Shown here: positions 1,474 to 42,828 of the stretch, piece after piece
Layout of the letters: each line of letters opens with the position of its first letter
Numbering within the stretch: position 1 is the stretch's first letter
Virus record (IMG/VR): IMGVR_UViG_3300040959_000451
Span: 1 to 42,828 of that record
Strand: one strand, 5' to 3'
Length of the DNA stretch: 42,828 nt
Origin: a virus
Notes under the pieces: generated by a model
What the model was told of the DNA's origin: nothing
What the model saw: the letters and a program-made list of their open reading frames with translations, nothing else
Databases searched by the model: none
Program-made: the position numbers and the translations under genes

Positions 1474-1501
1474 TTTACTAAATATTAATCAGTGCTACAA
1501 T
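1474..1501 (+). promoter_or_regulatory. Promoter for the head operon (extended -10)
   Basis: TTTACT (1474-1479), a 16-base spacer and TGCTACAAT ending at 1501 form an extended -10 promoter. Transcription would start near 1508, inside the left arm of the hairpin at 1502-1526. The same TGCTACAATAA string stands before the portal gene at 27688-27696 on the other strand. Confidence 0.6.
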
Positions 1502-1530
1502 AAGCCCTATCTAACACATAGGGCTTTTTT
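1502..1530 (+). terminator. Hairpin plus T run abutting the protease start codon
   Basis: AAGCCCTAT (1502-1510) pairs with ATAGGGCTT (1518-1526) around a 7-base loop, followed by more T up to base 1530. The ATG of the protease gene is at 1531, so the U tract is the entire spacer. The right arm holds AGGG, the only Shine-Dalgarno-like string for that gene. It would end transcripts of the preceding early genes and would hide the ribosome site in any read-through transcript. Confidence 0.75.
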
Positions 1531-2679
1531 ATGTCTAAACGTAACGTACTTATCTATACAAATGTTGGTAAGTCTCAAATAGAGGAGACAGACACGCATT
1601 TTAAAATTATTGGTATTCCAATCACCAAAAACAATGACGTAATGAATCGAGTAGCATATCTTGAGCAGCACAATGCTGATGGTATGCCGACAATGGTGGA
1701 CCAGCCTATCACTCTGCGTCATCCAGAAGTTGACGGCGTAAATGTATCAGCTAAACAAGGCAAAGGTTTAACTTATTTTAGTGGCTCACTTATCGAGCAG
1801 CAGCCTTACTTAGTTAACGGCACTTGGAAAGTTGATACACTAGTCAACAAGAAGAAGTTAGCCGCACAAGATGACGGTGAGCGTTGGACTGAAATTCTAA
1901 GCAATAAAGAAACGTTTGGCGTATCTACAGGTTTAACATTTGCGCGAAACAATGAAGCTGGTGAAATCAATGGTAAAGAATACGATATGGTTGCCAAGAA
2001 TCAGCAGTACGACCACCTTGCATTCCTAGACCCTAAAGTTGAAGCTCCAGCAGGCGGTGAAAACACAATGGTTCGCTTTAATTCCAATGTTGAGCAGGGA
2101 GAAATAATTGTTTGCAATATTGATGGTGATGAGCATCAAGAACCACTAACCGAAAACGCATTCAACAAGCTAGTTGAAAAGCTTAAGGGCGTTTTTGCAC
2201 CCGCAACAGATAAAGGCTACAATAGTCAAGAATTTGACGTAAACCAACAAAATGAGGATCTAATTATGGATCGTAGTGAAATGCTCGAAGCGTTAGGCTT
2301 GACTGCTAATAGTCAGGTCACAGACGATGAGCTTAAAACTCTAATGAAATCTAAGCTTGCCGCAAATGCTAGTGAGGGTTTCACTAAAGAAGATATTGAG
2401 TCGATTGTTAACGCAGCGATTAAACCTCTTTCTGACCAGTTAACAGCTAACGCAGATAAAGAGCTTAACGAAGTTGCTGAGCAAGTAGCGGCGCTTAACA
2501 AAGGCTTAGACGCGGATGACGCTAAAGCGCTTGGTTTAGAAAAGGCTAAGGCATTTTTAGCGGCTAATAGTGCAGAACACGTTGCGGAAGGTTATAACGC
2601 GCAACATGGTGGTCGTGCAGCGGGTACTAATTCAGACGATGGCGAATATCGCTCTCGCAAACCTGGTATTGAGGAGTAA
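1531..2679 (+). CDS. Prohead protease (DUF2213 type) fused to scaffold
   Basis: The protein has 382 residues. Residues 1-200 resemble the DUF2213 phage family that sits between MuF and capsid genes and is thought to be the capsid maturation protease (start MSKRNVLIYTNVGKSQIEET; later LEQHNADGMPTMVDQPITLR). Residues 246-382 are Ala/Glu/Lys-rich and helical, as expected of a scaffold. The upstream region is unusual: the start codon directly follows a terminator-like T run and the only ribosome-binding match lies in the hairpin arm. An internal ATG with its own ribosome site at 2266 could give free scaffold. The decoration and major capsid genes follow. No catalytic residues can be assigned with confidence. 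Confidence 0.75.
   Translation: MSKRNVLIYTNVGKSQIEETDTHFKIIGIPITKNNDVMNRVAYLEQHNADGMPTMVDQPITLRHPEVDGVNVSAKQGKGLTYFSGSLIEQQPYLVNGTWKVDTLVNKKKLAAQDDGERWTEILSNKETFGVSTGLTFARNNEAGEINGKEYDMVAKNQQYDHLAFLDPKVEAPAGGENTMVRFNSNVEQGEIIVCNIDGDEHQEPLTENAFNKLVEKLKGVFAPATDKGYNSQEFDVNQQNEDLIMDRSEMLEALGLTANSQVTDDELKTLMKSKLAANASEGFTKEDIESIVNAAIKPLSDQLTANADKELNEVAEQVAALNKGLDADDAKALGLEKAKAFLAANSAEHVAEGYNAQHGGRAAGTNSDDGEYRSRKPGIEE
2253..2268 (+). promoter_or_regulatory. Internal ribosome site and start for a scaffold-only product
   Basis: TGAGGA (2253-2258) lies seven bases before an in-frame ATG (2266-2268). Translation from there would give about 137 residues beginning MDRSEMLEALGLTANSQVTD, which is exactly the helical scaffold half of the protease gene. 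The layout matches the nested C/Nu3 genes of phage lambda, but expression is inferred. Confidence 0.5.
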
Positions 2680-12534: not shown

Positions 12535-12611
12535 TTCCCTATAGCTTAATTGGTAAAGCAGTCGACTCATAATCGAATGAAGGAGCGGTTCAAATCCGCC
12601 TAGGGAAACCA
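12535..12611 (+). tRNA. tRNA with CAU anticodon, probably tRNA-Ile2
   Basis: Acceptor arms TTCCCTA (12535-12541) and TAGGGAA (12601-12607) pair fully, followed by discriminator A and an encoded CCA (12609-12611). The anticodon loop CTCATAA places CAU at 12568-12570. The anticodon arm CGACTCATAATCG matches E. coli tRNA-Ile2 more closely than elongator tRNA-Met, so this is probably the lysidine-modified isoleucine tRNA that reads AUA, useful for an AT-rich phage. The T loop reads TTCAAAT. The T stem and anticodon stem each have one mismatch at the outer pair. Confidence 0.85.
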
Positions 12612-12612
12612 A

Positions 12613-12688
12613 GGTTAATTAGCTCAGTTGGTAGAGCGGGACGCTGTTAACGTCTAGGTCAATGGTTCGAGTCCATTATTAACCGCCA
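12613..12688 (+). tRNA. tRNA-Asn (GUU)
   Basis: Acceptor GGTTAAT (12613-12619) pairs with ATTAACC (12678-12684), followed by G and encoded CCA (12686-12688). The D arm contains AGTTGGTA, the anticodon loop CTGTTAA puts GUU at 12646-12648, and the T loop is TTCGAGT. All stems close, so the gene looks intact. It follows the tRNA-Ile2 gene by one base, so the two are probably processed from one transcript. Confidence 0.95.
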
Positions 12689-13434: not shown

Positions 13435-13443
13435 TGTTATAAT
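13435..13443 (+). promoter_or_regulatory. Tail operon promoter (extended -10)
   Basis: TGTTATAAT is a near-consensus extended -10 box 39 bases before the tail tube start. No good -35 is visible, as with the other structural-gene promoters here. Everything from 13482 to 23676 is on the plus strand with overlapping stops and starts, so one transcript could cover the tail module. Confidence 0.65.
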
Positions 13444-13481
13444 CTCAAATGACAATTTACTAGTAATTTGAGGATAAAAAC

Positions 13482-25256: not shown

Positions 25257-26314
25257 GACGTCCTACCAACCCCAGCGCGCCACGTTTTCTTCTGTTGGCG
25301 CATTTTCTCTATTAAACTTTCCATTACAACTTCGCCAGTTTTTCTATTCACTAAGATTGGAGATTGAGAGCAGAGACAGTTAATGCCAAAGCCAGACTCA
25401 GAATAAAAGGCTTCTACTTCCTGCAAAGTATAAATCTCAGAATGTTTTGCCACGTGGTTAGGGCGGCTTGTCATCGCCAACGCACTAAACCAAAGCTGCT
25501 TTTGCACAAATGGTGAGTTGCCGTAAATGTCTTTGTTTATTTCTTTTGTCTTAGCTCGTTGCGCTGTACGATATGCGCCCATAATTTCAGTACGTGATAT
25601 GCGTTGTGCGCGACTAAAGCCAACACCGACACGCTTAGCAACGTCCTGTGTTATTTGCCTAATACCCAAACCGCTAGCCATACCCTTTGTAAGAGTTTGG
25701 TAAAGGTCTTTTCTCATACCATCGCTAAGCCCCTTCATCTCATTAAATGTGCGAGCATAAACTAAACCGAGTGATTGAACTTGTTGCGGGTTAAACGCGT
25801 CCGCATCTAACTGTCTAATCATCATCGCTATTTCATCACCAACAACGCTAGGCTCAGCCATGTTTTTAGACGATTGGATGGTATCGCGTATCGCATCGTT
25901 AAATGCGCTTGATAAGTACGATTGATAAAACCAATTCTGCGGCTTGCGTCCGGTAATCGACTCTAACAGCTCGTTATAAAGTAAACGCTCAATAAATGCG
26001 TTAATTGAATCGTAACGCTCAGTTGATACGTCATAACTATAAAAGGTTTTGTTAGCTACAACTTCATTGGAGCGCTCACCTTTATCATTTAGAGGCCACC
26101 AAAAAGACATACGATTACTGTTAGCAGATGCAACACGCTGAATATCTTTTTGCTCAGCAACTAACGATTTAACCGCTTTATTAATGCGCTCGAACCGTTT
26201 TTTCAATTCGACTTGAGCGCGTTTTAGATTACCTTTCTGATTCGCCGGGTCTGCTGCATCACGAGGAATGACAGGGTATGCACTAATCTGGCGTATTTTT
26301 TTCATCTGAATCAT
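25253..26314 (-). CDS. Phage head morphogenesis protein, MuF / SPP1 gp7-like
   Basis: The 353-residue protein follows the portal gene and overlaps it by 32 bases. Residues about 215-330 hold the MuF core: GFSRAQRISRTEIMGAYRTA, then AMTSRPNHVAKHSEIYTLQE and GFGINCLCSQSPILV, the last being the conserved CxC end of the domain. MuF proteins enter the prohead in small numbers beside the portal. The start may be the ATG at 26314 or the one at 26305. No toxin-like extension follows the MuF core. Confidence 0.85.
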   Translation of the reverse strand: MIQMKKIRQISAYPVIPRDAADPANQKGNLKRAQVELKKRFERINKAVKSLVAEQKDIQRVASANSNRMSFWWPLNDKGERSNEVVANKTFYSYDVSTERYDSINAFIERLLYNELLESITGRKPQNWFYQSYLSSAFNDAIRDTIQSSKNMAEPSVVGDEIAMMIRQLDADAFNPQQVQSLGLVYARTFNEMKGLSDGMRKDLYQTLTKGMASGLGIRQITQDVAKRVGVGFSRAQRISRTEIMGAYRTAQRAKTKEINKDIYGNSPFVQKQLWFSALAMTSRPNHVAKHSEIYTLQEVEAFYSESGFGINCLCSQSPILVNRKTGEVVMESLIEKMRQQKKTWRAGVGRTS

Positions 26315-27656
26315 CGTCTAAATTTAGATCTTCTTTTGGGTCGTAATCAGTATCAGGTTTATCAGGTTCAGAGCCGCCAATTTGTCTAATTTCTTCCATG
26401 GTCCACGGAGCCTCTTGCCCAGCTCTAAATGCTTGTTCATTCTGGCTAGTCATCTTGCCAGCGTTATCTAGCTTTTCGGTAGTGCTAGGCTCGCCAATAT
26501 CAGGCCAGCACACCTTAAATTCACCGCTTGACGGCTTAGGAAGTAAACCCAAACCAACCAACCACGATAAAAACTTATGAATGTCATTACTATATTTCTT
26601 TTGCCACTTTTTAAGGCGCTTGGTAAATGCTGAGCTGTTCTGCGTACTTGCTCGCTCACCAGTCATAAAGCCAACCAACTCAGTAAATGACACACCTCGG
26701 CTTGCACATGCTTCAACCACACAAATTTCCCATGCTGATTTAGGGTCTTGCAGTTGAGTTTGCAAGCTTGTGACATTTACACCAGCCATTCGTAATGCTG
26801 AATTAAAGTTATCGTTAAAGTCGTCTAACGCTTCATCAATAACCTCTTTCTTAGCATTAAACGCCTTTGCAGCCTCTGCGTTGTTAGCGCTTAGAATGTA
26901 CTTTTGCATAGCATTTTTACGATAACCTTCACTAGATGCACCACGTACTTTGTTAGCGTCAAATAACGCGTTAAAAGCTGGCTCTAGTACTGATTCACCA
27001 TAAATGGTTGCGCCTACTGCATTGGTAATAACTTTTACACGGCTATAGTGTAATGTGTGCTGCTCTGCGTTAGTTGTTTGTCTGCCGCTTAACTGTGACG
27101 GCTGCAACTTATAACTCAAAGGTTTGTTGTAGTTTGGGCTGCTGTAATCCGCGTCATACTCTTGATTTGCTTCACATTCCAATTCATACCAAGGATTTAT
27201 TGCAATTATGCGCCTACCTTGCGTTATTGGGTTTTCTAGCTTGTTTTCTGTTGGCTCAGATATAACCGGTACAATAGTCGAGTATTGACCAACATCAGCC
27301 ATCTTAAAAGCAGTTTCAAAAACGCGCCACAAATCAAAATCAGTAACTAATTTTTTAACTGCTTTCTCAAATTGAGTATCTTGAGGCGTATCTTCATCAC
27401 CATCTACAATAAATGGATCATCAGAAAAGCAGCGCTCAGGGATAATATCGACAATCGCATTAAAGAAACCACCGCGACGATATGCGTTATATAAATGATT
27501 AAAATCTAGCGCATCAGGATAGCCATATGATGCAGAATCATTTCGGTTAGTGTCACCAAAATTAACCGGAGCACTAGGTATAATTGAGTTAAGTGGCCTA
27601 CGCTGATTTTGTCGCATATTAGCCACGAATGTTTTATTTAGAGTATTTGCAGACAT
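26283..27656 (-). CDS. Portal protein, DUF1073-type
   Basis: The 457-residue protein has the portal pattern: GGFFNAIVDIIPERCFSDDP near residue 62, KMADVGQYSTIVPVI, LHYSRVKVITNAVGATIYGE followed by SVLEPAFNALFDANK, and an acidic C-terminal tail (DPKEDLNLDDDSDEKNTPD). This is the DUF1073 group of dodecameric portals. It lies on the minus strand more than 11 kb from the terminase genes and far from the capsid genes. Its start codon directly follows a hairpin and T run, as for the protease gene, and no standard ribosome site is present. Confidence 0.9.
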   Translation of the reverse strand: MSANTLNKTFVANMRQNQRRPLNSIIPSAPVNFGDTNRNDSASYGYPDALDFNHLYNAYRRGGFFNAIVDIIPERCFSDDPFIVDGDEDTPQDTQFEKAVKKLVTDFDLWRVFETAFKMADVGQYSTIVPVISEPTENKLENPITQGRRIIAINPWYELECEANQEYDADYSSPNYNKPLSYKLQPSQLSGRQTTNAEQHTLHYSRVKVITNAVGATIYGESVLEPAFNALFDANKVRGASSEGYRKNAMQKYILSANNAEAAKAFNAKKEVIDEALDDFNDNFNSALRMAGVNVTSLQTQLQDPKSAWEICVVEACASRGVSFTELVGFMTGERASTQNSSAFTKRLKKWQKKYSNDIHKFLSWLVGLGLLPKPSSGEFKVCWPDIGEPSTTEKLDNAGKMTSQNEQAFRAGQEAPWTMEEIRQIGGSEPDKPDTDYDPKEDLNLDDDSDEKNTPD

Positions 27657-27686
27657 AAAAAAGCCACACGTTTAAAAGTATGGCTT
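27657..27686 (-). terminator. Hairpin plus T run abutting the portal start codon
   Basis: On the minus strand AAGCCATAC pairs with GTGTGGCTT, including one G-U pair, around an eight-base loop, followed by TTTT and then the ATG at 27656. The mispairing on the plus strand shows that the structure is meant for minus-strand RNA. It would end transcripts of the replication operon, and it mirrors the hairpin before the protease gene. Confidence 0.7.
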
Positions 27687-27687
27687 T

Positions 27688-27696
27688 ATTGTAGCA
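27688..27696 (-). promoter_or_regulatory. Promoter for portal/MuF (extended -10)
   Basis: TGCTACAAT on the minus strand, followed by AA and the hairpin, is identical to the box before the protease gene. The start of transcription would fall near 27681, inside the left hairpin arm. No -35 is visible. Confidence 0.55.
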
Positions 27697-27723
27697 TGTT
27701 GTATTAGAGGGGGCTATTTAGTG

Positions 27724-42612: not shown

Positions 42613-42828
42613 TGAAGCTACAATTACCAGAAAGCGCGGATATTCAAAGCATTGAATTTTACGCAGCGCCAGAAGGTACTGCAAAGTTAAGAGATGAATT
42701 TTGCGACACTGACAATCTTGGTTGTAGGTTTATTGAAATAAACAATGGATGTTACGTTATTGACAACATTAGCTTTGAGGTTGGTTTTCCTTTATCTATC
42801 GATGATAATTTCAGAATTATAGAAAAGT
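42612..42828 (+). CDS. Hypothetical protein, 5' part (continues at base 100, ends at 155)
   Basis: The ATG at 42612 overlaps the preceding stop (TGATG). 72 codons lie before the window end, and after the 99-base overlap is removed the frame continues to 155, giving 90 residues (MKLQLPESADIQSIEFYAAP at the start, acidic, with FRIIEK and a basic end). No family recognised. The unbroken frame is the best evidence that the ends join. Confidence 0.75.
   Translation, partial: MKLQLPESADIQSIEFYAAPEGTAKLRDEFCDTDNLGCRFIEINNGCYVIDNISFEVGFPLSIDDNFRIIEK
42730..42828. repeat. Terminal redundancy, right copy
   Basis: Exact copy of bases 1-99. See the left copy for interpretation. Removing one copy gives a circle of about 42,729 bp. 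Confidence 0.95.

Follow-up and report, generated by a model that had tools for sequence, protein, structure and literature searches.

A putative promoter, a terminator-like hairpin and a start codon joined at the head genes of a marine phage

The elements at the protease and portal genes

The window analysed here is a whole virus record of 42,828 bases. Its first and last 99 bases (1-99 and 42730-42828), read by eye, are identical, so the genome is probably complete, circular or circularly permuted, with a length of about 42.7 kb. A putative head maturation protease/scaffold gene is the first of a capsid unit and is followed by head-decoration and capsid genes. Upstream of it on the plus strand lie the terminase region and small genes, which span the ends of the record. 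The features at the start of the protease gene are as follows.

1493..1501, plus strand: extended −10 box TGCTACAAT (TGC-TACAAT), identified from sequence, with a TANAAT-type box at the equivalent place in relatives
1502..1526, plus strand: 9 bp hairpin AAGCCCTAT-CTAACAC-ATAGGGCTT, with arms at 1502-1510 and 1518-1526 and a loop at 1511-1517
1520-1523, plus strand: AGGG within the right arm of the hairpin
1525..1530, plus strand: T6 tract, a terminator-like tail adjoining the start codon
1531..2679, plus strand: putative head maturation protease/scaffold gene (phrog_760; one relative is annotated DUF2213)

The −10 box, hairpin, T6 tract and protease ATG follow one another with no spacer between the parts (1493-1533, plus strand). 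An in-frame TAG at 1519-1521 lies upstream of this ATG, and the protein sequence is conserved by residue 38, well ahead of the next methionine, which together make 1531 the sole usual start of the protease. The box agrees with the sigma70 extended −10 TGNTANAAT. The −35 is poor, with TTTACT matching at four of six positions, and no TTGACA is found at 16-18 nt in the protease copy; relatives have TAGCCCACC instead. A sequence-only reading of this DNA had described a promoter box, hairpin and T run leading directly into the protease ATG, and this arrangement is confirmed by the sequence. The element that it placed at 1474-1536 is real, but those limits take in the poor −35, and a copy at the portal gene was overlooked.

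The portal copy was detected by a self-search of the record, as a 46-base similarity on the minus strand. It occupies 27696-27654 of that strand, at the portal ATG, and its stem sequence is unlike that of the protease copy.

27709..27719, minus strand: conserved upstream box AAATAGCCCCC, −35-like, beginning 26 nt before TACAAT
27688..27696, minus strand: extended −10 box TGCTACAAT
27660..27687, minus strand: hairpin AAAGCCATAC-TTTTAAAC-GTGTGGCTTT
27657..27662, minus strand: T6 tract adjoining the portal ATG
26283..27656, minus strand: portal protein gene, first of the second head unit (phrog_146, PF06381)

Read along the minus strand, the order is TGCTACAAT AAAGCCATAC TTTTAAAC GTGTGGCTTTTTT ATG (27656). 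The arms differ from those of the protease copy while the pairing is kept. Helicase, exonuclease, SSB and methyltransferase genes lie upstream on the same strand, and with such neighbours both elements stand at a junction of co-directional upstream genes with head genes. Both also have the form of an intrinsic terminator, a stable stem directly before a U-rich tract (9-10 bp, −11.2 and −12.8 kcal/mol, U6). Rfam models matched two tRNAs in the window and left the element unmatched. A tRNA-Met and a tRNA-Asn lie in tandem at 12535-12688, between blocks of virion genes.

The promoter match by itself is not above chance. The window holds 11 promoter-like sites against 14.2 expected, and 32 matches to TGCTACAATAA with up to two mismatches against 26 expected, so the −10 box by itself proves nothing. 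The full architecture, counted as a −10, a stem of at least 7 bp, a T tract and an ATG, occurs twice in the window, compared with once in 300 dinucleotide shuffles of it. In a PWM scan for more such promoters, the only clear or stem-bearing sites were those of the protease and portal genes, plus the head-morphogenesis gene in phage C7.

Conservation, covariation and recurrence

Relatives were phage records and viral contigs fetched by protein homology to the protease and portal. Six isolated Pseudoalteromonas and Vibrio phages and several viral contigs carry the element at their counterparts of the protease and portal genes. The protease gene has this architecture in XCL1123, TW1, H40/1, H103, C7, pYD21-A and LP.1 and in contigs L009-L012 and L024-L027; the portal gene has it in XCL1123, TW1, H40/1, H103, C7 and pYD21-A and in contigs L033-L037. 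It is absent from the more distant protease relatives L028, L029 and L032, and alignment of the protease against the genome collection found no relative. Published papers on these phages, among those accessible, do not mention promoters or terminators.

The −10 box of the relatives is TACAAT or TATAAT, often with TG before it, and its end lies 0-1 nt from the stem. From the −10 to the ATG there are 27-32 nt in Pseudoalteromonas-type phages, with pYD21-A and LP.1 at or just under this range, and with this spacing transcription is predicted to start within the left arm. Most relatives have, starting about 23 nt ahead of the −10, a TAGCCC(C)ACC box (TAGCCCACC); it is present at the portal promoter of the window and absent at the protease promoter (1462-1495). 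Its location at the place of a −35 in relatives suggests a phage-specific activator.

The stems have changed in sequence while remaining paired. Ten distinct protease stems, located through protein homology, were aligned: 98.8% of cells are paired, compared with 26-63% in slid controls, and four of eight pairs have changed on both sides. G-U pairs are common in the stems. Such wobble pairs preserve RNA pairing and break DNA symmetry, which argues for selection on an RNA hairpin rather than on DNA. The T6 tract is invariant across the ten aligned copies, and the ATG comes exactly next.

Across 38 copies the mean folding ΔG of the stem is −11.9 kcal/mol with both arms and −0.6 when the RNA begins 7 nt past the −10, a position within the left arm in nearly all of them. 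For the protease copy the value of −11.2 kcal/mol falls to only −0.9 in an RNA begun at this point, and the predicted transcription start is 1508/1509, within the left arm. The earlier proposal of a promoter and a terminator, with initiation inside this arm, is well backed by the conservation, the covariation and the fixed distance from −10 to ATG.

The arrangement recurs in contigs found without reference to these proteins. Exact scans of viral contigs for ACAATAGCC-N10..24-GGCTTTTTT followed by ATG, ATC or ATA gave 102 matches with ATG after the T tract, 2 with ATC and none with ATA. The 102 ATG matches represent 21 distinct elements, one of which, lacking a TANAAT box, accounts for 68 of them. 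This hairpin-T6-ATG element lies ahead of a phrog_4727 gene in 68 viral contigs (L114, L126, L264, L282 and others) and also in Acinetobacter genomes. Each of the 13 distinct elements with TACAAT starts an ORF of at least 121 aa. In wider scans, an ORF of at least 60 codons follows 34 of 38 matches with a TANAAT box and 27 of 63 without one (P = 2e-6). This motif occurs less often in the genome collection, and mostly no long ORF follows it there.

Twenty of the downstream proteins were tested. For about half, the match was to the protease family or to a family of head, packaging or lysis proteins, namely terminase, two portal families, head-morphogenesis, head proteins and endolysin. A minority are otherwise, namely RNase H, dNMP kinase or unknown, and several of the twenty belong to families unrelated to those of the window. 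Contigs L186 and L298 have canonical TTGACA-N17-TACAAT promoters ahead of non-late or unknown genes. With such promoters and genes among the matches, the design is better described as an insulated promoter than strictly as a late one. Contigs L117, L141, L151, L183 and L190 form a family with TTGACA and TATGTAAAAATAGCC...GGGCTTTTTTATG, whose downstream genes begin MIIG (dNMP kinase in L141).

Inserted genes and a tail-gene contrast

In the window the portal and head-morphogenesis genes overlap, and no element lies there. Other phages have genes between the two. In C7, where a methylase gene separates them, the portal gene has a terminator after it and the head-morphogenesis ATG has a merged element of its own, the third in that phage. 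At this place 1.076.O and 1.210.O carry other insertions, after which come a terminator and a −10, here as separate parts. The insertion in pYD21-A has no element after it. That upstream transcription is kept out of the head genes, as had been suggested, fits the junction locations and the elements after the insertions in C7, 1.076.O and 1.210.O, but not the pYD21-A insertion.

A tail gene of the window presents a related arrangement with one part missing.

13438..13472, plus strand: late-type tail promoter TATAAT, then a CTCAAAT...ATTTGAG hairpin whose right arm overlaps the SD; no T tract

The arrangement recurs at the tail gene of XCL1123 and H103 (L013 near 39327, L016 near 13983), where the hairpin after the −10 again overlies the SD and no T tract is present; the stem measures 12 bp in XCL1123. 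The tail-gene SD of the window and of XCL1123 and H103 is better than the SDs at merged sites. Upstream of the tail-gene hairpin, XCL1123 and H103 have a clear separate terminator and the window a weak one. This T4-like tail version suggests that both termination and occlusion of the SD exist in these phages, apart or fused. In H40/1 and C7 a perfect palindrome, TTGATAACGTTATCAA, comes right after the tail-gene −10 (L015 near 40723, L017 near 8913) and is possibly an operator.

Readings of the hairpin and known systems

Opening the ribosome site of read-through RNA costs 9.5-15 kcal/mol at Pseudoalteromonas-type sites, compared with a mean of 4.7 for 139 CDS from two of these phages. In RNA begun at the predicted start the cost is about 2-6, except in L026 (9.9), where the RNA can refold. 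The SDs are −3.5 at the protease and −2.7, nearly absent, at the portal, against a CDS mean of −6.3. A G-rich right arm is usual in terminators. The suggestion that read-through RNA hides its ribosome site is plausible but less certain, with the high opening cost in its favor and the weak SDs and the ordinary G-rich arm against it. Because the SDs are weak, occlusion is ranked second: at merged sites termination is probably the primary function, with occlusion as a probable backup.

The best explanation of the element, and a probable one, is an insulated promoter that would initiate transcription within an intrinsic terminator. Judged from sequence, the start site, termination, translational effect and timing would be as follows. 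Polymerase arriving from co-directional upstream genes would transcribe both arms, and the hairpin formed at the T6 tract would terminate transcription. In read-through RNA that escaped, the stem would stay beside the AUG, and translation would probably be poor. Transcription from the local −10 would start about 7 nt downstream, in the left arm, and yield an RNA unable to form the hairpin. This RNA would be neither terminated nor occluded, and its leader of 21-26 nt would end in U6-AUG. The head genes would then be expressed only from their own promoters, of which there are two here, one for the protease unit and one for the portal unit.

A simpler account, which is quite possible if somewhat short of probable, is that a terminator at the end of an operon and a promoter overlap only to save space, and that the hairpin has no translational role. 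Any promoter-terminator overlap would require the same geometry, a G-rich right arm is ordinary in terminators, the SDs are weak, and the two parts stand apart in 1.076.O and 1.210.O. Against mere packing stand the tail gene of the window and of XCL1123 and H103, where a hairpin covers the SD in the absence of a T tract, and 1.076.O, where read-through RNA occludes the SD region despite an upstream terminator; the opening costs are moreover outliers.

Three further accounts have less in their favor. Late genes are under antitermination in many phages, and upstream transcription might pass the hairpin with the help of a phage antiterminator, in which case the −10-like box would not be a promoter. 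This is very unlikely given the conservation of the TANAAT box, often with TG before it, together with the upstream box and the fixed spacing, and given the link between the box and an ORF at the ATG among the blind matches. It is highly improbable that a repressor or activator uses the inverted repeat as its DNA operator: although the palindrome next to the tail-gene −10 of H40/1 and C7 is of such a form, the stems of the element differ among copies and keep their wobble pairs, while the positions of T6 and ATG are fixed. A translational switch of the T4 gene e type alone, with an incidental T tract and little termination, is unlikely. The anatomy does resemble that of T4 gene e and I-TevI, whose late transcripts lack the 5' arm (PMC3014915, PMC2988022), but T6 is invariant in ten protease copies, the stems are of terminator grade, the ATG comes exactly after, and in portal copies there is hardly an SD that could be hidden.

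If the insulated-promoter reading is true, virion genes of this marine phage and of many others would seem to remain unexpressed until transcription starts at their own promoter. This would explain how head proteins are kept from early expression in phages without a dedicated late-gene cluster. On balance, self-erasing terminators of this kind may well form a class of phage control elements that is widespread and has evolved repeatedly. In such an element promoter, terminator and start codon would be fused within about 40 bp, the origin of a transcript would decide its termination and translation, and virion genes that follow co-directional genes would be guarded. The compact and portable rule of −10, stem, T6 and ATG at fixed spacing could locate the starts of late units in phages without transcriptomes, and the origin-sensing part of about 40 bp could serve as an insulator in synthetic constructs.

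T4-type late promoters have the consensus TATAAATA and depend on gp55; the box here is a different one, TACAAT in the window and TACAAT or TATAAT in relatives. Late-gene leader hairpins are known from T4 gene e, I-TevI, soc, 49 and segB and from Aeh1 mobE (PMC3014915, PMC2988022). As in the T4 gene e and I-TevI group, where early read-through RNA forms a hairpin over the ribosome site and the late start drops the 5' arm, the predicted position of the local start in the present element would remove the 5' arm of the stem. The T4 hairpins are described as translational only, with no U tract or terminator role (PMC3014915, PMC2988022), whereas the present element has a terminator-like stem with T6 and a sigma70-type −10 and stands ahead of essential head genes. 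In the literature searched, which included few subscription papers, no report was found of the same stem acting as a terminator at a start codon. What appears new relative to the T4 precedent for translation is the fusion with a terminator before essential head genes, in an arrangement that is conserved and also turns up in unrelated phages.

Like intrinsic (Rho-independent) terminators, the element has a GC-containing stem directly before T6; unlike them, it is overlapped by a promoter start and adjoined by a start codon, so that it would act on upstream RNA only. It also shares with the SAS/ESAS of mycobacteriophages the recurrence at start codons and, in some cases, inverted repeats. SAS has an invariant 13-bp sequence, lies close to non-structural genes, and contains repeats that do not support formation of an RNA hairpin (PMC3203893). 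The 13-bp GGGATAGGAGCCC is not found in the present element, whose stem covaries and is followed by virion genes.
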